Below, piece by piece: positions 1 through 7,169 of a DNA stretch of 7,169 nucleotides. The notes under the pieces are model-generated. The model worked only from the letters and a program-made list of their open reading frames with translations, was not told the DNA's origin and ran no database searches. The translations under genes were made by a program, and so were the position numbers. The DNA lies in contig JAFGON010000092.1 in assembly GCA_016926475.1 (NCBI GenBank), positions 1-7,169 on the forward strand, given 5' to 3'. The first letter of the stretch is position 1. The number at the start of each line of letters is the position of its first letter. Origin of the DNA: a candidate division WOR-3 bacterium. Lineage in GTDB: Bacteria; SDB-A.

Positions 1-884
1 GGGGATTTGCAGACAAAATAAACACCGCTTTTAAAACGCGGTTGTTTTCTGCTGATCACTTCCGGCGTGTGCTTAAGAAGATATATAGTCTTAAGCAAGC
101 TACTGAGTTTTGTGTCGAAGTTATTGCTTTCCAAAACCTTGAGCCGGCTTTCCTGGGAGAAATACTCGAATTCACTGTTGCCTGGAATTTTCATCTTCCC
201 ATCCACAACACAAATGAATCCTTTTTTATTTCTGGAAATTAAATCATTGGTGGAATTTTCGAACTTGAAAAGAACGTCGTTGATTTTAATCCCCTCGATT
301 TCCCTTTCCCTGACTATCAACAACTTTTCCCTGAACACCCTCGGGAATACTCTGCTCTTAAAATAATAGTCATCGCCGTTCTTAGTGAAGATTTCTTCAA
401 AATTCTTTACGTTAATAAAACTGCTTTCGTTCAAGGCGTTATGGACAAATGGCAATTCATAATCCCAGTTGCTGTTCTTCTGGAACATAGAGATTTCATT
501 GATGACTTTGTTGAGAAATTTGGTGAACTTGACGCATTTTTTCAGGGGCATTCCTGCCCTTGAACCGGGGAAAAGCTTTTCAATAGTGCTGTTTACAGTA
601 AGTTTTTCCCAAAGATACTGCGAAACTTCATATACTTTTCCGGAATCAATACAGAAAAAACCTACCATTTTTTTGTCACCGAGAATAAATTCCTTCTTCA
701 GAGTCTTGTAAAAACTTCCGCCCTTGTTTTCCGGAGGCGGAACAATCCAGTGGGCCGCCTTTCTTGTAAAAATTTTTAAATCTTCAATTTCCTTTTCGGA
801 GCTGAATGCGATTTCTTTCAAGCTTGCGGCAAGAAAAGTAAGCCCTTTAAGCAGTTTTTTTCTCTTGAATATTTCCACTTGCAT
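1..884 (-). CDS. Unrecognised protein encoded after a MoxR-type ATPase (3' end outside window)
   Basis: Reading frame open from an ATG at 882-884 to the left edge, giving 294 visible residues with no stop, so the C-terminus is missing. The start is supported by GCGAGG at 891-896, 6 nt upstream, and by a 38-nt overlap with the end of the AAA+ gene, which indicates translational coupling in one operon. I do not recognise the protein. It is soluble-looking and rich in Lys, Glu and Phe. Visible landmarks are a WIVPPPENKGG segment (about residues 46-56), a hydrophobic strand MVGFFCIDSGKVYEV (about 73-87) and a later strand KGFICVVDGKMKIPG. No transmembrane segment, signal peptide or Walker motif is seen. 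MoxR ATPases are commonly followed by a von Willebrand A (VWA) protein, but no MIDAS DxSxS motif occurs in the visible part; it could lie beyond the edge. It is most likely the functional partner of the ATPase. Confidence 0.8.
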   Translation of the reverse strand, partial: MQVEIFKRKKLLKGLTFLAASLKEIAFSSEKEIEDLKIFTRKAAHWIVPPPENKGGSFYKTLKKEFILGDKKMVGFFCIDSGKVYEVSQYLWEKLTVNSTIEKLFPGSRAGMPLKKCVKFTKFLNKVINEISMFQKNSNWDYELPFVHNALNESSFINVKNFEEIFTKNGDDYYFKSRVFPRVFREKLLIVREREIEGIKINDVLFKFENSTNDLISRNKKGFICVVDGKMKIPGNSEFEYFSQESRLKVLESNNFDTKLSSLLKTIYLLKHTPEVISRKQPRFKSGVYFVCKS

Positions 885-2187
885 AGTTTTCCTCGCTTTT
901 TAAAATTTCTGAAATTATTTCAACTGCGGTATCGTCGTCATTGTCAATGTATTGGTCGCAAATCCCTGTTATTCTGTAGCTGTCAACGCTCATTCCGTGA
1001 AGATTCCTGTTGAGCCAATCATCACCCTGACTGAGTATAACTTCCTTCGCTTTTTCAAAAAGTTGAATATCCTTTTCGCATGATGAAACGTTTTTTTCCT
1101 GCAAAAGCCTTGCTTTGTTCAAAATTGTCAGGGCTGATTTAAAAGCTTCTTTTCCCGATGTCGAAATCTTGAATTTTTGAAGTATTCTCTCTGTGCTTTC
1201 CTCGTTTTCCGGTTCTATCTTGATAAAACCCAGATCCCTGATTGTCTTTTCAAGTATTTCCTTCTCTAGATTTCTCGTATTCCCGTCCTCGATGGCGGGA
1301 TAAATCCAGGAAAACTCGGAAGCCATTTTAAAATTATCCCTAAAGACTTTCGTTGTAATTCTGATTTTTTTTGACATGTCTATCGCGAACATGACTTTTA
1401 ACGTCCTAAAAATCATTCCCACTCTTCTCTCGCTTACCGCTTTGAATTCTTTTTCGGAACATACATCCTGGGCATTCCTGTAATAAGCAGCGCAGAATTT
1501 TTCGGATAAATCGGTAATTTTTTGGGGCAAAGTATAATATTCTTTTTTTACTTTCTTTATAAGGGCTTGAAGTTTTTCAGTAATGTTCTTGTCGAACTCG
1601 TTATCTTCTCTCAGAAGCGACGATTTTTCATTATTTCCTTTGACAATTTTGAGTATGTCATCTTCTTTGAAATAATCATCTATCTCCACAATCTGGGCAA
1701 ATCTATCTGCGAGTGCAGGGTCAAGTGTATAAGCACCGGGATAATTCAGGGGATTCATCGCTGAAAACACATACCTTAACGAAGGAATATTTTTTCCCAT
1801 CAAGGATCTGTCCTTGATGATTTCAAGCCATTTGCTCTGCATGGCATAATTCGCCCTCGATAATTCGTCAATCAATATGAATTTTTTATTCCACAAGGTC
1901 ATGGGCGATTTTATGTATTCCATTTTACTTTTTTTCATCATTTCAGGATCTGGGAAACCGATGATGTCTTCAAAAACCGATTTAGATGCGTCGTATGCGT
2001 TGAATTCTTTTTCATCTCCTTCCGTTTTATATCCGAGAGCACGCGCTAACTGACACAACATAAACGTTTTACCAGATCCGTGTTTTCCTATAAAAAGAAG
2101 TGGTTCCCCTGTGACCAATGATGAAAGAATTATTTTGGAATACTTTTCGTATCCAAAAACTTGAAGTTTTTGTAAAATTTCATCCAT
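847..2187 (-). CDS. MoxR/AAA_5-type AAA+ ATPase
   Basis: A 446-residue ATPase, probably a cytoplasmic chaperone-like machine that uses ATP to remodel a partner protein or complex. Motifs in order: Walker A GKHGSGKT (34-41), Walker B FILIDE (103-108) followed by LSRA as in MoxR helicase-superfamily-III-like AAA+ proteins, sensor 1 SAMNP (142-146), and the DPALADRF segment (156-163) that matches the LDRF box of the MoxR/AAA_5 group. The C-terminal half (about 200-446) is helical, charged and not recognised; it is longer than in minimal MoxR proteins of about 320 residues. The ATG is supported by AGGAG at 2194-2198, 6 nt away. It is the first gene of a minus-strand operon with the overlapping unknown gene, and is divergent from the HsdS/HsdM-like pair. 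The catalytic residues look intact. The family is clear, but the substrate is not known. Confidence 0.9.
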   Translation of the reverse strand: MDEILQKLQVFGYEKYSKIILSSLVTGEPLLFIGKHGSGKTFMLCQLARALGYKTEGDEKEFNAYDASKSVFEDIIGFPDPEMMKKSKMEYIKSPMTLWNKKFILIDELSRANYAMQSKWLEIIKDRSLMGKNIPSLRYVFSAMNPLNYPGAYTLDPALADRFAQIVEIDDYFKEDDILKIVKGNNEKSSLLREDNEFDKNITEKLQALIKKVKKEYYTLPQKITDLSEKFCAAYYRNAQDVCSEKEFKAVSERRVGMIFRTLKVMFAIDMSKKIRITTKVFRDNFKMASEFSWIYPAIEDGNTRNLEKEILEKTIRDLGFIKIEPENEESTERILQKFKISTSGKEAFKSALTILNKARLLQEKNVSSCEKDIQLFEKAKEVILSQGDDWLNRNLHGMSVDSYRITGICDQYIDNDDDTAVEIISEILKSEENYASGNIQEKKTA

Positions 2188-2193
2188 TTTAAT

Positions 2194-2198
2194 CTCCT
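2194..2198 (-). promoter_or_regulatory. Ribosome binding site of the AAA+ gene
   Basis: AGGAG on the minus strand, 6 nt before the ATG at 2185-2187. It fixes the start codon of the ATPase. Confidence 0.8.
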
Positions 2199-2237
2199 TT
2201 TTTTATTATAGTGTTGCTAAATTTTATTACATCTTTG

Positions 2238-2266
2238 TTTATAGTATAAATTTGATGCAGTGTCAA
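2238..2266 (-). promoter_or_regulatory. Near-consensus sigma-70 promoter for the AAA+ operon
   Basis: On the minus strand a perfect -35 TTGACA (2261-2266) is followed by a 17-bp spacer and a -10 TATAAA (2238-2243). Transcription should start near 2230, leaving a leader of about 43 nt that contains the AGGAG site. A second TATAAT (within 2205-2216) lies nearer the gene but has no good -35. The strong promoter suggests the ATPase is expressed constitutively unless a repressor intervenes. Confidence 0.65.
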
Positions 2267-2310
2267 GAAAAATTTATAAGTGCATTGAAAAAATTATTAC
2301 CATTATTGCT

Positions 2311-2339
2311 TTGTTTTATTTTATCAACTGTGTTATCAT
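2311..2339 (+). promoter_or_regulatory. Extended -10 promoter placed for a leaderless HsdS-like mRNA
   Basis: An extended -10 element TGT-TATCAT (2331-2339) has a weak -35 TTGTTT (2311-2316) at 17 bp spacing. The ATG of the HsdS-like gene begins at 2345, only 5 bp after the -10, so transcription would start at or within a base or two of the start codon. No Shine-Dalgarno sequence is visible before this ATG, which agrees with leaderless translation. The call is from pattern only. Confidence 0.45.
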
Positions 2340-2344
2340 CTGCC

Positions 2345-2962
2345 ATGGTTATAAAAAAAATTAAGCTGTCCGATATTTGTGAAATCAGAGCCGGCTATCT
2401 TTTTAGATTTAAGATAGAAGAAGATAATGAAGGAGATGTTCAGGTAATACAGTTATCAGACGTCGGCCGTTCTCTTATTTTAGAAAATTTAGGCCAATTT
2501 AAATCCATTAAAATTGACGATAAAAGAATTCTCGAAAAACATCTTCTCAAAGAGGACGAAATCTTATTCAAAGCCAAATCAACCAACCATGTCGCAGCTG
2601 TTTTCAAGGGTAATTTTAATGCCCTCGCGACGCACCATTTTTTTATCATGAGAATACGGCCAATAGAGGGTATAAATAGGAATGAAATATTCCCCCCTTA
2701 CCTTGCCCTTTACATCAACCTTCCCCCTTCGCAGACTCATTTTTCATCCAACAGGGCGAACACACATATAATAAACAAAAACTCTCTCGAATCACTTGAA
2801 ATAGCATTACCTGATATCGAAATTCAAAAAAATGCGGTTAATGTCTATGAAAACCTCACCAAACAGATGGAAAATTACGGGAAAATTATCGAACATAAAA
2901 AAGAATTACTGGACCTGACTCTCAGCAATTTACTGGGAATATCAAATGCTTTTAAGGACTGA
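2345..2962 (+). CDS. Half-length HsdS-like DNA specificity protein (single TRD)
   Basis: A 205-residue protein resembling one half of a type I restriction S subunit (Methylase_S family), which recognises DNA and scaffolds M subunits. The N-terminus, IKLSDICEIRAGYLFR, is the standard opening of a target recognition domain (TRD). The TRD is followed by SLESLEIALPDIEIQ and a long helix ending KELLDLTLSNLLG, the usual linker and conserved central/C-terminal helix. Full S subunits have two TRDs and about 400 residues, so this one would need to dimerise to bind a bipartite site. I start at the ATG at 2345 because homology begins there. Upstream TTG (2252) and ATG (2255) codons add a signal-peptide-like hydrophobic stretch that makes no sense for a DNA-binding protein and that overlaps the promoter. 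It overlaps the next gene by 17 nt, implying coupled expression. The family is clear; the target sequence is unknown. Confidence 0.82.
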   Translation: MVIKKIKLSDICEIRAGYLFRFKIEEDNEGDVQVIQLSDVGRSLILENLGQFKSIKIDDKRILEKHLLKEDEILFKAKSTNHVAAVFKGNFNALATHHFFIMRIRPIEGINRNEIFPPYLALYINLPPSQTHFSSNRANTHIINKNSLESLEIALPDIEIQKNAVNVYENLTKQMENYGKIIEHKKELLDLTLSNLLGISNAFKD

Positions 2963-4301
2963 CAGGTTGTTTTCCGATAAAGGAAGAGAATACATTGGGC
3001 TGTACCAGAATTTCTGCGATGGCCGGCAATCATGGAACAGTTTTTCTCTGTTCTTCGGGGCAGTTCTTCTGAAGTTTTGCGAGGAATCAAAGGTTTCTTC
3101 AAACCCTTTCTCAAAAAACACAGAGCATCCTTTTTCGGGTCTTGTCACAGAAAAAAACGCCTATGAAAACCTGATATCTTTGTTGGATAAGTTTTTACAA
3201 AACAATTCCATTGAATTTACCGACATCACAAATCAAGACTTCTTTGAAAATAACTTAAGCAAGGAAGGAAAAGACAGGAAGGTAAAAATACTGGCTCTTG
3301 AGCTGTCGGACAAGAATAAATCTTTGACGGATGAGAAGGGTTTATTTTTTATTACCCTCTTCAGGTATTTTCAGCACGGAAACTATTTTTTCAACCCAGA
3401 ACAGAGGGCTCAAGAAAACGCCAAAAAGCTTATGTTTGCTTTGGCTGAAAAAAAGGGTTGTGAAAATATAGTGTTTTCAGGCATAGAAAACGGGGTGTAT
3501 TTTGATTATCAGGAAAATTATACCCGTAATATTTTCGTCGGAACTGAATCCATGTATTCCTTCTTGATCCAGACTATTTTGAAAAAATTCTCTGAATCTG
3601 AAAACATAAAAATTCTGAAACCTAAAGACGCTCTGACTTCCGGAGAAAAATTCTTAAAATTTCATTTTCCTAAATCATACGTATCCATGAGAAGAATTTT
3701 TTTCAGAAACGAAAGAGAACCCGGAGATATTCGAAGAGCTGACAATCTTTACAAAGAATACCTTTCAAAAGAACTCAATCTATTGTTTACTGAAGGAAAA
3801 GGCATTTATTTATATGTTGACGCAAGGACTCTGGCTGAAGATTATCTGAGAAATGAATTTTTTGTTTTGATTTCTCAAAAACCTCTTGATTTTGCCGTAA
3901 GACTTCCAAACATGTACTTTTTGGGAAATTACCGGCAGTCATTCGTATTCGGTTTCAGCAATAACAAGACGAAAAAAGGTGTTTTGCTTGTCGATGCGTC
4001 AATTTTCACTGAAAATAAAACAAGAAATAGTCTCACAACTGAGATTGTCGAAAGTATCGCGGATATAATCACCAATAGAAAAGAAAAAAAATATTATGCA
4101 AAAATATTTACTGAAATCGAAGATTTTAAACTAAACCTTTTCAAACCTCTTCACCCGGAATCCGCAGGTTCGGAGAATTTTTCAGATAAACTCAAGAATC
4201 TAAAAGATGAGATAAATTCCCTGACCGAGAATATCGGAAAATTAGAAGATGAATTCGATGAATTGACAGACGATATTAAAGGTCGAATACCAGAAGGTTG
4301 A
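2946..4301 (+). CDS. HsdM-like protein lacking methyltransferase catalytic motifs (pseudo-methyltransferase)
   Basis: A 451-residue protein translated in overlap with the HsdS-like gene; the spacing and overlap are those of an M/S subunit pair. By eye the C-terminal half follows the HsdM pattern: KGIYLYVDARTLAEDYLR (about 285-302), LDFAVRLPNMYF (314-325), QSFVFGFSNNKTKKGVLLVDAS (331-352 in two pieces), then LTTEIVESIAD and NRKEKKYYAKIF (363-388), and a terminal coiled coil (about 413-445) like the helices with which HsdM contacts HsdS. In the Rossmann region, the motif I position (about 173-182) reads ENIVFSGIEN with no GxGxG or DPxCGSG. The NPP(F/Y) position reads HFPKSY (240-245). VGTES (198-202) and KPKDAL (225-230) sit where motifs II and III would be. 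I infer that it cannot bind SAM normally or methylate adenine, and that it serves as a structural or DNA-binding partner. The homology is remote and read by eye, so a novel fold partner of HsdS remains possible. Confidence 0.62.
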   Translation: MLLRTDRLFSDKGREYIGLYQNFCDGRQSWNSFSLFFGAVLLKFCEESKVSSNPFSKNTEHPFSGLVTEKNAYENLISLLDKFLQNNSIEFTDITNQDFFENNLSKEGKDRKVKILALELSDKNKSLTDEKGLFFITLFRYFQHGNYFFNPEQRAQENAKKLMFALAEKKGCENIVFSGIENGVYFDYQENYTRNIFVGTESMYSFLIQTILKKFSESENIKILKPKDALTSGEKFLKFHFPKSYVSMRRIFFRNEREPGDIRRADNLYKEYLSKELNLLFTEGKGIYLYVDARTLAEDYLRNEFFVLISQKPLDFAVRLPNMYFLGNYRQSFVFGFSNNKTKKGVLLVDASIFTENKTRNSLTTEIVESIADIITNRKEKKYYAKIFTEIEDFKLNLFKPLHPESAGSENFSDKLKNLKDEINSLTENIGKLEDEFDELTDDIKGRIPEG

Positions 4302-4312
4302 GAACCTTCTGG
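4290..4312. terminator. Perfect 10-bp hairpin across the HsdM-like stop; possible bidirectional terminator
   Basis: Arms CCAGAAGGTT (4290-4299) and AACCTTCTGG (4303-4312) pair perfectly around a 3-nt loop GAG. The TGA stop (4299-4301) falls at the arm-loop junction. It lies between convergent genes, where a shared terminator is expected. No clear U-tract follows on either strand, so it may be only a by-product of the overlapping tandem repeat. A weaker hairpin, AAGGTT-GAA-AACCTT, follows at 4339-4353. Confidence 0.4.
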
Positions 4313-4380
4313 TTGAGAACATTTCGGTTGAGAACTTTAAGGTTGAAAACCTTTCAGCTTACAATCTGCTGTTTGAAAAC
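4296..4380. repeat. Tandem repeat of 15-bp period (core GGTTGAGAAC plus 5 variable bases)
   Basis: The core GGTTGAGAAC occurs at 4296-4305, 4311-4320 and 4326-4335, then GGTTGAAAAC at 4341-4350, a diverged unit at 4356-4365, and GTTTGAAAAC at 4371-4380. The register is exactly 15 bp throughout. The 5-bp spacers differ. In the plus strand this reads as pentapeptides of the type L-(R/K)-T-(F/L)-x, but no sensible protein contains them. The array fills the whole gap between the HsdM-like stop and the lipoprotein stop. Confidence 0.85.
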
Positions 4381-4381
4381 A

Positions 4382-4852
4382 CTATTCCACAATAATTTTA
4401 AGACTATATTCACCTGTTCCGGAATTTGTCGAATAAACCCTCGCCTCATACTCATCTGGTCCGGCGATGACATATATAAGCGCATCACCCATAGGGTACT
4501 CGCTGTCCCATTCGGCTAGAACCGCACCTGTGGAGACTTCGATTAGTTTGAGAAGAGGAGTGAAAGCTTCGGTCGTAACTTCGACCCTTACTTTGTCTCC
4601 TGTCGTAGCTTCAAAAGTGTATGCATCATAGGGAAAGTTCATGTGGTTGGGATCCGTCAGGTCGCCCTCTTCTATCGTGCCGGATTTTTCGATAATCTGC
4701 TCAGTTGGTTCAACCCTCGCAGTTGTATCAGCCGGCTCTGAAGATTCACCGCCAGATTCGTTTTTTGAACATTCCCAAGAGAGCAAAAGCGTCAGAATTA
4801 TTATCGGCAAATAGCACCAAACATGCATCTTTTTCACAACATTTACTCTCAT
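4382..4852 (-). CDS. Small putative lipoprotein with a PPC-like beta-sandwich domain
   Basis: A 156-residue exported protein. The N-terminus has Arg/Lys then a hydrophobic run WCYLPIIILTLLLS (12-25) ending at Cys28, which suggests lipidation, although the residues before the cysteine (Trp-Glu) are not a canonical lipobox. A Ser/Glu/Pro/Thr-rich linker follows (about 29-55). Residues 57-156 match the bacterial pre-peptidase C-terminal (PPC) domain pattern: GTIEEGDL, YDAYTFEATTGDKVRVEV, TPLLKLIEVSTGAVLAEWD and GEYSLKIIV. Such domains are usually appended to secreted enzymes; here the domain stands alone. The ATG is fixed by AGGAGG at 4859-4864, 6 nt upstream. The gene lies 89 nt after the RES toxin gene on the same strand and converges on the HsdM-like gene. 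A functional link to its neighbours is not evident. Confidence 0.78.
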   Translation of the reverse strand: MRVNVVKKMHVWCYLPIIILTLLLSWECSKNESGGESSEPADTTARVEPTEQIIEKSGTIEEGDLTDPNHMNFPYDAYTFEATTGDKVRVEVTTEAFTPLLKLIEVSTGAVLAEWDSEYPMGDALIYVIAGPDEYEARVYSTNSGTGEYSLKIIVE

Positions 4853-4858
4853 TATAAA

Positions 4859-4864
4859 CCTCCT
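4859..4864 (-). promoter_or_regulatory. Strong ribosome binding site of the putative lipoprotein gene
   Basis: A full AGGAGG on the minus strand sits 6 nt before the ATG at 4850-4852. It selects this start over the in-frame Met9 codon downstream. I saw no convincing promoter in the 89-nt gap, so the gene may be read from the RES-Xre promoter. Confidence 0.8.
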
Positions 4865-4941
4865 GTTTTAAAAGGGTTTCATATCCATAGATCGAGAGAA
4901 AATCGGAAGATTATTGAAAAGATGTTTTTTGTATTCATTAA

Positions 4942-5415
4942 TTATCTGCTGATATGATTTTTGAGCCGGCTGTCGATTTCGAAAGGTTCAGATATCCCCA
5001 TCCTCATCTTCTTGAAATCCTTGTGTGAGACGTTCAGAAGATAGTTGAATTCACTCGGGACAATGACGCTGGGGACTTTTAGAACAGGAAATTTATTTTC
5101 TTCATACCAATCGTCTCCGATGTTCCTTAAGGCTGAAGGCGCCGGAAACTTTCTCCAGTTATTCGGCAATATTTTTGGATCTATTTCTTTCACCATGGAA
5201 TTTTCAAAAATGACGGGTATCAGAACATAGTTTTCAAGCAGAGTCTTGTCCAAGTGGACCGTGATTTCAAGCAAAGCGAGAGAGATATTTTCAGAGGTGT
5301 AAACCACTTTTTTCCCTGAACTGTTCCACCTCCCGCCGTAAATTCTGGCTCCTTCACCTGAAAAAGCCGTTGCCTCAAATTTCTTTTTGACAATCCGCCA
5401 GGAGGTTATCTTCAA
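4942..5415 (-). CDS. RES-domain toxin of a RES-Xre toxin-antitoxin system
   Basis: A 157-residue RES protein. Characterised members of the family (for example MbcT) degrade NAD+ and stop growth when freed from the antitoxin. Visible hallmarks are WRIVKKKFEATAFSGEGAR (residues 6-24), YGGRWNSSGKKVVYTSE (26-42) containing Arg29, SLALLEI with Glu50, and VPSVIVP (114-120) with Ser116, followed by NYLLN (124-128) and His131. The conserved Arg, Glu and Ser are therefore present and the toxin looks active. I choose the TTG at 5413-5415, which overlaps the antitoxin stop as TTGA and gives the usual RES N-terminus. The only in-frame ATG (5533-5535) would add 40 basic residues that are just the antitoxin gene in another frame. 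The overlap implies coupled translation with less toxin than antitoxin. Confidence 0.9.
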   Translation of the reverse strand: MKITSWRIVKKKFEATAFSGEGARIYGGRWNSSGKKVVYTSENISLALLEITVHLDKTLLENYVLIPVIFENSMVKEIDPKILPNNWRKFPAPSALRNIGDDWYEENKFPVLKVPSVIVPSEFNYLLNVSHKDFKKMRMGISEPFEIDSRLKNHISR

Positions 5416-5903
5416 GGAAAAACGCCGTGTTCGAGCCTGCCCATTAGATTTTCGACTTCCTTGGCTCCGGTTTCGCTTTTTATGAAATCTATAGGTCTGA
5501 GGTTCCCGAGGCCAACCTGCTTTTCGGAAAGCCATTTTTTTGCACTGTCGAAATCCCCTTCGAAAAGCTCAATGGCTTTCCAGAAAACTCTCGACAATCT
5601 GACAAGTCTGTCGGATTCGTCGGGTTCGAGTTTTCCGGCGATTTTTCTTCTCTGAAGCGTTCGAACGCTTATCTGAAGAAGCTCCGCCAGTTCACTTGCG
5701 TTCATCTCGAGGTTTTTTTGAAATTTTAAAAAAGCGGAGTACGGAATTCCACCTTCTATGTTCTTCAAAAGAGGTTCTGTATCACAGGCCTTAAGCCCCA
5801 AGAGTATTAAGTACGGATGGGAATTTTTTTCGCCGGCAGAGTTGAGATGCTTTTTCAGATAATCGGCAGAAACGCCTTTATTTTTAGTTTCTTTTACAGC
5901 CAT
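5412..5903 (-). CDS. Xre/MbcA/ParS-type antitoxin (DUF2384)
   Basis: A 163-residue antitoxin that neutralises the adjacent RES toxin and probably represses its own operon. A helix-turn-helix lies at about residues 67-92 (NASELAELLQISVRTLQRR) and is of the Xre-like kind typical of this family. The C-terminal toxin-binding region (about 105-160) shows the DUF2384 pattern: FWKAIELF, AKKWLSEKQVGLGNLRPIDF, then TGAKEVENLMGRLEHGV. I start at the ATG at 5901-5903. The frame continues to 5996, but those 31 codons run through the promoter (5928-5956) and look like chance coding. The ribosome binding site is weak (AAAAGAA). The gene is first in the operon and its stop overlaps the toxin start, the usual antitoxin-first order. 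Confidence 0.9.
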   Translation of the reverse strand: MAVKETKNKGVSADYLKKHLNSAGEKNSHPYLILLGLKACDTEPLLKNIEGGIPYSAFLKFQKNLEMNASELAELLQISVRTLQRRKIAGKLEPDESDRLVRLSRVFWKAIELFEGDFDSAKKWLSEKQVGLGNLRPIDFIKSETGAKEVENLMGRLEHGVFP

Positions 5904-5916
5904 AAAATTCTTTTGC

Positions 5917-5946
5917 CATTTGGCTTGATTATACCAGACATTTGGC
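5917..5946. promoter_or_regulatory. Operator-like direct repeats CATTTGGC flanking the -10 box
   Basis: CATTTGGC occurs at 5917-5924 and again at 5939-5946, 22 bp apart, about two helical turns. The copies flank the TATAAT at 5928-5933. The first is part of GCCA-TT-TGGC, a small perfect inverted repeat (5915-5924); the second differs by one base (GACATTTGGC). This is where an autoregulating antitoxin would be expected to bind. The assignment is inferred from position only. Confidence 0.5.
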
Positions 5947-5956
5947 GTAAGGTAAA
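5928..5956 (-). promoter_or_regulatory. Promoter of the RES-Xre operon
   Basis: On the minus strand there is a consensus extended -10, TGG-TATAAT (TATAAT at 5928-5933), with -35 TTTACC (5951-5956) at 17 bp spacing. Transcription would begin near 5921, about 18 nt before the antitoxin ATG. This supports the shorter antitoxin start. Confidence 0.7.
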
Positions 5957-5985
5957 TCATTTTATTTAAATATATTATTTTGTAA

Positions 5986-6013
5986 TTGAAAATCAAATTG
6001 AATCAAATACAAA
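5986..6013 (+). promoter_or_regulatory. Weak candidate promoter for the Asp-box protein gene
   Basis: TTGAAA (5986-5991), a 16-bp spacer and TACAAA (6008-6013) form a plausible but weak sigma-70 match upstream of the secreted protein gene. The region is very AT-rich, so chance matches are likely. Confidence 0.25.
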
Positions 6014-6056
6014 TAGGACTAATTTAATGAGTTTTTACAATATATGTGATAGTTTA

Positions 6057-6072
6057 TTGATAGGATTATCAA
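6057..6072. promoter_or_regulatory. Small inverted repeat just upstream of the ribosome binding site
   Basis: TTGATA (6057-6062) and TATCAA (6067-6072) pair perfectly around GGAT. The hairpin ends 1 nt before AAAGGAG (6074-6080). It could shape the 5' leader or be a protein site. It is short and AT-rich, so the significance is uncertain. Confidence 0.35.
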
Positions 6073-6085
6073 CAAAGGAGTACTG

Positions 6086-7169
6086 ATGAAGAAAATGTTT
6101 GTTTTAATTGGTATATTCGCTTGCGTTTCTATTTTCGCAAGCGGACATGGTCCGTCTGGGACAATCTTCTCAGAAGCGGTGACAATACACACCGGCGAAG
6201 GCATTGACCCCGAAGAAGGAATGCTTCCCGAGACAACACCATATCCTGTCCAAAATCAAGAAGACTTAACCATGCGCACTGAACCATCCAGATACGCCCC
6301 TCTCTGGGGTCCGGACCTTTTGGTCACGGACCAATGCGTGATTCCCTACAGATACAACATCGCCCTCGATTACGATGCCAACGGCTATATCTATGCAGGC
6401 ATTCAATCCTGCCACTCTTCTGGCACCGACACACTTTTTGTATACAGAACAACCGACAATGGCTATACATGGAATATGATTTACAGTATGAATCCAGGCA
6501 CAGGCGGGCAATTGCTTGATTTCGATATGAAGTTGGAACCATTCGTAAGCGACAACCCTAATATATACCTGATATGGGCTGACTCAGTTCCCGCTTCCGG
6601 GTATAGGCTTTTTTTCGGAGCTGTTCAACCCGGATACGGAGAAAGATGGCTGCAGTTTTCCGACCCGGATTACGACAGCGTGTTTCAGGTAGCAATGGAT
6701 GTCGAACCTGATTCAAATCCCTTTATTGTGATTTCCTTAATAAGACTTTACCACACGCCGGGAGAAACTTCTTGGTTGACTGCGTCTTCTGCGGACACCG
6801 GAGTAACATGGGACATGTATGGACCGCATACTTCTTCATTGGGTCCAAAGGAAGTGACCGCCGCCTGCAATGACTCCGACGTTTTTTATGTCGGAACAAT
6901 ATATAATCAGTCCTCCAACAGATTCAGAATGTGGGGCAATCAATCTGGCTTTGTCAATGTGTCTTCAGCAAACGACACTGTGAGGTCCACACCGCAGTTA
7001 GCTTCGCAAAAATACCACACGTATCCGTCCAATTACGTCTACGGACTTTACACACAGGGGACTAATCCAAGAGTATATTACAACTACAGTTCAGACGGAG
7101 GGAACACCTGGCAAACACCCGGAATCTGGTCGATGTCCGGTGATGTGTATTCAAACAATCCAAACATGA
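6086..7169 (+). CDS. Secreted Asp-box (BNR/sialidase-like propeller) protein, 3' end outside window
   Basis: Open frame from the ATG at 6086 to the right edge, 361 residues visible and no stop. AAAGGAG at 6074-6080, 5 nt upstream, fixes the start. Residues 1-19 form a Sec signal peptide (MKK, then a hydrophobic core, then FAS-G), so the protein is exported. Three Asp-box motifs of the S-x-D-x-G-x-T-W type are seen: TTDNGYTW (122-129), SADTGVTW (235-242) and SSDGGNTW (335-342), spaced about 100-113 residues. These turns occur in beta-propellers such as sialidases and many non-enzymatic surface proteins. Sialidase catalytic residues cannot be assigned, and the gene should not be called a sialidase. 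The missing C-terminus may hold an anchoring or secretion-sorting domain. Base composition looks less AT-rich than in the HsdS/HsdM-like genes. It diverges from the RES-Xre operon. Confidence 0.85.
   Translation, partial: MKKMFVLIGIFACVSIFASGHGPSGTIFSEAVTIHTGEGIDPEEGMLPETTPYPVQNQEDLTMRTEPSRYAPLWGPDLLVTDQCVIPYRYNIALDYDANGYIYAGIQSCHSSGTDTLFVYRTTDNGYTWNMIYSMNPGTGGQLLDFDMKLEPFVSDNPNIYLIWADSVPASGYRLFFGAVQPGYGERWLQFSDPDYDSVFQVAMDVEPDSNPFIVISLIRLYHTPGETSWLTASSADTGVTWDMYGPHTSSLGPKEVTAACNDSDVFYVGTIYNQSSNRFRMWGNQSGFVNVSSANDTVRSTPQLASQKYHTYPSNYVYGLYTQGTNPRVYYNYSSDGGNTWQTPGIWSMSGDVYSNNPNM

Follow-up and report, generated by a model that had tools for sequence, protein, structure and literature searches.

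MoxR-type AAA+ ATPases and vWA proteins form the core of MoxR-vWA-centric ternary systems, described in VMAP, iSTAND, FtsH and beta-propeller types (PMC7159879). These systems have a fast-evolving third component, include vWA-fused peptidases, occur in several copies per genome and are proposed to counter invaders. The same role has been proposed for MoxR-vWA systems with peptidase effectors (PMC7159879, PMC12839542). A number of MoxR-vWA pairs serve as chaperones in maturation (PMC9976466, PMC10585395), and vWA-MoxR-VMAP genes have been linked to type III CRISPR and CARF, with MoxR-vWA modules lying beside type III CRISPR loci (PMC10910872). In jumbo phages, a MoxR protein paired with a vWA protein that carries an N-terminal metallopeptidase has been proposed to act in virion assembly, not defence (PMC7824862). 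Among type I restriction components, half-HsdS proteins are able to dimerise and bind split sites (PMC6158711).

We describe here a locus in which genes of both sorts are found together. The window analyzed is 7,169 nt long and takes up the whole of contig G000:C92, one of 106 contigs in a genome of 2.15 Mb. A first-pass annotation of the sequence had proposed a compact module of four genes in two divergent arms, and the ORF calls agree with it on coordinates, on overlaps of 38 nt (847-884, ATPase and X) and 17 nt (2946-2962, HsdS and HsdM), and on the 157-nt divergent gap. The features are as follows.

3..884, minus strand: X, a partner protein with no assigned fold; cut off by the contig end, leaving 294 aa (the X of the related genome SDB has 345 aa)
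847..2187, minus strand: MoxR-type AAA+ ATPase, 446 aa; Pfam AAA_5 and AAA_3
2188..2344, no strand: divergent intergenic region, 157 nt, with partial conservation in the second copy, on G000:C36
2345..2962, plus strand: half-HsdS, 205 aa; one target-recognition domain and one helical region; Pfam Methylase_S
2946..4301, plus strand: pseudo-HsdM, 451 aa; HsdM-like, has lost motifs I and IV, with a helix at the C-terminus
4302..4382, no strand: right edge of the cassette; the flank homologous to a cassette-free site in the same genus begins at 4383

The length of the gap assumes that the half-HsdS starts at ATG 2345; an in-frame TTG at 2252 is also possible. A promoter and terminator search of 2188..2344 returned no match above chance. 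A RES-domain toxin and an Xre-type antitoxin (4942-5535 and 5412-5996, both minus strand) adjoin the cassette; this pair also lies beside the second copy and occurs in another genome of the genus, G002, without the cassette.

We tentatively read the locus, at a little short of even confidence, as a five-gene accessory DNA-site sensor in which a type I specificity complex that no longer methylates would control a peptidase driven by MoxR, probably for defence.

The ATPase arm and its fifth gene

The ATPase had been called an intact AAA+ protein, and it matches Pfam AAA_5 (E=9.6e-9) and AAA_3 (2.4e-7) with both Walker A (GKHGSGKT) and Walker B (LIDE) in place. Its nearest solved relatives are Midasin, 2r44 and RavA. 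The partner protein X (3-884) was described as an unknown protein, and it has no match in Pfam, NCBIfam or PDB; what the letters of the window could not reveal is that its ORF runs off the contig, so that the cassette is interrupted there. Five members of the X group were scanned, and none has a Pfam match above cut-off. Elsewhere X occupies the same slot, between MoxR and a metallopeptidase-vWA protein. X-like proteins are present in this region at most MoxR/peptidase-vWA loci, and most of them cluster by iterated profiles. The X of the window and SDB joins the others by profile-profile comparison only (probability 73%, E 3e-5). AlphaFold models were too poor for use, with a pLDDT of 47 for X and 37 for pseudo-HsdM.

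A second copy of the cassette was identified on contig C36 of the same genome, with about 86% DNA identity over 4.7 kb. There the ATPase arm extends past X into a fifth gene (8685-10172, 495 aa), whose product joins a zincin-like metallopeptidase to a vWA domain. This protein contains HELSHIFFEH and a vWA MIDAS; the conserved motifs of the group are HExxHxxxxH and DxSxS...T...D. Its VWA_CoxE match (1.6e-4) is below the Pfam cut-off, and the MIDAS motif is conserved here and in SDB. The fifth gene is also present in SDB, and in the window its position would fall beyond the contig end. All four of the predicted ORFs are present, but the module as first proposed was one gene short. The metallopeptidase-vWA proteins at L018:10354-11769, L033:6076-7485 and L051:12545-13894 are matched by PHROG 1314, whose label, HNH endonuclease, looks wrong.

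Between the C92 and C36 copies, dN/dS is 0.13 for MoxR, 0.27 for X, 0.18 for S and 0.35 for M, and all four genes therefore look to be under purifying selection in both copies. We rejected a reading as dying genes on these values. Synonymous divergence between the two contigs is lower in the cassette (dS 0.28-0.56) than in the common flanking genes (dS 0.9-1.1), which suggests exchange or conversion of the cassette.

The half-HsdS and pseudo-HsdM pair

The first-pass annotation recognized a DNA-specificity protein and a methyltransferase-like subunit without catalytic motifs, and both descriptions hold. The half-HsdS matches Pfam Methylase_S (E=1.1e-10) over one domain only and can be aligned with seven other half-S proteins of its group. 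The match of pseudo-HsdM to N6_Mtase (E=3e-5) is confined to the stretch that follows motif IV (profile positions 201-290 of 311), and a motif test of the window protein found neither NPP[FYW] nor DPxCGxG. None of the seven pseudo-M proteins for which the region is available has motif IV (NPPF) or motif I (DPxCGxG). NPPF is kept at all 13 ordinary HsdM loci (L099-L111) retrieved with the same model.

Several of the ordinary HsdM genes have a half-S directly upstream. Among the loci that we examined, three contain HsdR and a full S (L114 and L115, with HsdR found by Pfam, and L112, by eye), and the cassette S profile matches their half-S proteins at 5e-26 to 4e-34. Since ordinary HsdM genes with an upstream half-S exist, some of them in HsdR loci, the S/pseudo-M pair looks, from these comparisons, like a derivative of type I systems of this kind. 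Branches on the pseudo-M tree are very long, and hence a single loss of catalysis and repeated losses would both fit.

Some neighborhoods of related genes were also observed. Pseudo-M/half-S pairs without MoxR at L037:1110-3072 and L092:2279-4244 have similar surroundings, with a TPR protein and a formylglycine-enzyme-like protein. In SDB (L028:6937-8248) pseudo-M adjoins a DNA methyltransferase that looks intact (TSPPY) and what may be a restriction enzyme. The type I locus at L112:4598-14999 consists, in order, of half-S, HsdM, a SAVED-HNH protein with nucleotidyltransferase-like genes (CBASS-like), full HsdS and an HsdR-like start.

The home genome also contains a separate type I locus on contig C81, with part of an HsdR-like gene, an intact HsdM carrying DPACGTGG and NPPF, and a full HsdS of 432 aa. 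The S/pseudo-M pair could in principle still take part in type I restriction with these subunits, as an alternative specificity or an anti-restriction decoy, leaving the MoxR arm independent. This is very improbable, as the C81 HsdM lies far from pseudo-M on the M tree (which has long branches), and at four of the five S/M-bearing loci S-M is an immediate neighbor of MoxR and no HsdR is seen close by. The annotation had noted that HsdR was absent, and the ORFs at the loci in the window, C36 and SDB include none.

Distribution and linkage of the two modules

The only other genus of the family sampled is represented by the MAG Desulfuromonas sp. SDB (L028, identical to L033), and the whole divergent cassette is present in it. 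M and S lie on one side and MoxR, X and the peptidase-vWA gene on the other, separated by a gap of about 160 nt. Identities to the home proteins are 41% for MoxR, 31% for S and 35% for the peptidase-vWA protein. Searching GTDB genomes with an alignment of the ATPase identified 23 loci. Two candidate-division WOR-3 genomes have S, M, MoxR, X and peptidase-vWA in this order, with S and M on the strand of MoxR; in UBA6260 (L055), where all five genes share one strand, S-M is directly upstream of MoxR, and in UBA2202 (L037) one or two ORFs, a WapI-like gene and a small ORF of doubtful standing, lie between M and MoxR.

The S/M pair is thus beside MoxR at five loci in four genomes of two lineages (the home genome twice, SDB and the two WOR-3 genomes), and S always precedes M. 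These are about 5 of some 39 ATPase loci, several of those without S/M being on short contigs. The peptidase-vWA gene adjoins the ATPase at all 22 loci that are not cut by a contig end and at all eight from a further sample. The ATPase, its partner and the metallopeptidase-vWA protein form a widespread core of the MoxR-vWA kind, and the half-HsdS/pseudo-HsdM pair is an add-on to it. The co-occurrence that the first-pass annotation proposed to check recurs in four genomes in the same neighborhood; however, about 34 of the 39 ATPase loci do not have S/M. When the criterion of that annotation is applied from the ATPase side, the two pairs are mostly apart, and the adjacency is nonetheless not due to chance: we rejected a single chance juxtaposition because the arrangement recurs across loci, and the shared neighborhood together with dN/dS values of 0.13-0.35 argues for more than coincidence.

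Might S and pseudo-M be a sequence-specific repressor or other local regulator on the divergent promoter, keeping the MoxR-peptidase arm off until displaced, with a coupling that is purely transcriptional? The 157-nt region is common to the two arms and has conserved blocks in both home copies, and SDB is likewise divergent with a gap of about 160 nt. However, in L055 and L037 S-M is codirectional with MoxR and upstream of it, so that the sharing of one divergent promoter is not conserved across the loci, and promoter signal in 2188-2344 does not exceed chance. Such a regulator is unlikely.

The core might also do housekeeping work, as a chaperone or in maturation, in the manner of RavA-ViaA or NorQ-NorD, with a type I remnant that happened to land beside it. 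That the core is mostly found without S/M fits this explanation, as does the presence of maturation chaperones among MoxR-vWA pairs (PMC9976466, PMC10585395). A remnant would not account well for S-M adjacency at five loci in two lineages with a fixed S-M order, or for purifying selection on S (0.18) and pseudo-M (0.35), and the cassette is accessory. In G002 the right flank (window 4383-6220) is present with other genes in place of the cassette, and neither of two same-genus genomes has a close match to MoxR or pseudo-M, which together mark the cassette as accessory. We consider the housekeeping explanation improbable.

On the MoxR tree the presence of S/M requires two changes, and the AU test weakly rejects a single clade for the ATPases that have S/M (p=0.036). 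Two gains of S/M, or one gain followed by losses, would both fit this tree.

Plasmid and phage collections gave generic MoxR or HsdM matches only, and X was absent from them. Viral scans with pseudo-M, X and the peptidase-vWA protein found nothing, and the ATPase scan found one system, on a huge-phage contig (L018:7914-11769), with MoxR, an X-like protein and a metallopeptidase-vWA protein in the same order as in the bacterial core. In two Ignavibacteria genomes WYL-like regulators, recognized by eye, directly follow the MoxR-peptidase/vWA genes (L034:3901-4887 and L035:3662-4699). WYL-like regulators are often seen in defence loci.

A putative DNA-gated protease compared with known systems

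In the sensor-protease reading that we favor, the first module would be a MoxR-vWA system with an N-terminal zincin-like metallopeptidase on the vWA protein and X as third component. The second would be a type I specificity complex cut down to a half-HsdS and a methyltransferase-dead HsdM. Two half-S proteins may pair, with pseudo-HsdM subunits as a clamp, and bind a bipartite DNA site that is neither methylated nor cut. The DNA-bound S-M complex would then be the sensor, its target a site in invading DNA or one without host methylation. Once on its target it would engage the MoxR ring through X or the vWA domain. The ring and vWA protein would serve as switch and loader (PMC7159879, PMC9976466), ATP-driven remodelling would activate or load the peptidase, and the zincin, as effector like the peptidases of proposed MoxR-vWA counter-invader systems (PMC12839542), would cleave a phage or host protein and stop infection.

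Several observations count against this reading. Most MoxR-X-peptidase/vWA loci are without S/M, PADLOC contains no such system, and some pseudo S-M pairs stand apart from MoxR (the first pair of L037 and the first pair of L092). The X gene on C36 has an in-frame TGA (8480-8482 in L003) where the window has AGA; its frame remains open past this codon, matching the full-length X of SDB. The virion-assembly role proposed for jumbo-phage MoxR/peptidase-vWA pairs (PMC7824862) speaks against defence.

A more general claim, which we regard as possible but rather doubtful, is that of a DNA-sequence-gated protease: an S complex that neither methylates nor cleaves would license a MoxR-driven metallopeptidase, perhaps recruited more than once in separate lineages, and immunity would be achieved by proteolysis and not by DNA cutting. 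If this is true, the DNA-reading half of restriction-modification is separable from methylation and cutting and can be connected to a protein-remodelling protease. For MoxR-vWA conflict systems, about whose triggers little is known, this would provide a DNA trigger that is testable with a defined site. It would also raise the question of how a non-methylating reader distinguishes self from non-self.

The searches agree with the claim that no named system has this composition. Pfam, NCBIfam, PADLOC, PHROGs and the open-licence literature searched yielded no described system that combines half-HsdS, dead HsdM, MoxR and metallopeptidase-vWA; the ATPase arm is a variant of the known MoxR-vWA kind. 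PADLOC gives a mad5 match for the HsdS (3e-11) and a weak mad8 match for the ATPase (5e-4). We rejected an assignment to MADS by these two matches, as that to mad5 is no better than to general HsdS models. The full MADS set (mad1-8) includes a kinase, a nuclease and an active methyltransferase, whereas the cassette has matches to mad5, mad8 and mad1 only, all weak or generic. No PglZ or BrxC of BREX was matched among the window proteins in Pfam and PADLOC.

Compared with type I restriction-modification, the cassette has an HsdS subunit, yet of one domain only, its HsdM does not have motifs I and IV, and HsdR is not in the locus. It resembles the half-HsdS type I loci (L112, L114, L115; PMC6158711) in that a half-HsdS of some 200 aa precedes HsdM. 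However, HsdM in those loci retains NPPF, and the loci include HsdR and a full HsdS. The type III CRISPR-linked vWA-MoxR-VMAP genes (PMC10910872) likewise would couple nucleic-acid sensing to a MoxR-vWA module, but they are triggered by CRISPR or cyclic oligonucleotides and have no HsdS or HsdM. The jumbo-phage pair (PMC7824862) shares MoxR and a vWA protein with an N-terminal metallopeptidase, and is without S/M.

The cassette is also close to the MoxR-vWA ternary systems (PMC7159879), which share a MoxR, a vWA co-chaperone, a third component and a vWA-fused peptidase with it. The cassette has a Walker-intact MoxR and, in C36 and SDB, an adjacent gene for a vWA protein. In contrast to the named third components (VMAP-C, iSTAND, FtsH, beta-propeller), X has no Pfam match above cut-off, though it may be a distant homologue; the peptidase of the cassette is zincin-like and N-terminal, and the extra half-HsdS/pseudo-HsdM pair does not appear in the passages of PMC7159879 that were consulted. 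Judged by its gene content, the cassette is probably a variant of the known MoxR-vWA kind, and the addition of a half-HsdS and a dead HsdM appears to be its new part.
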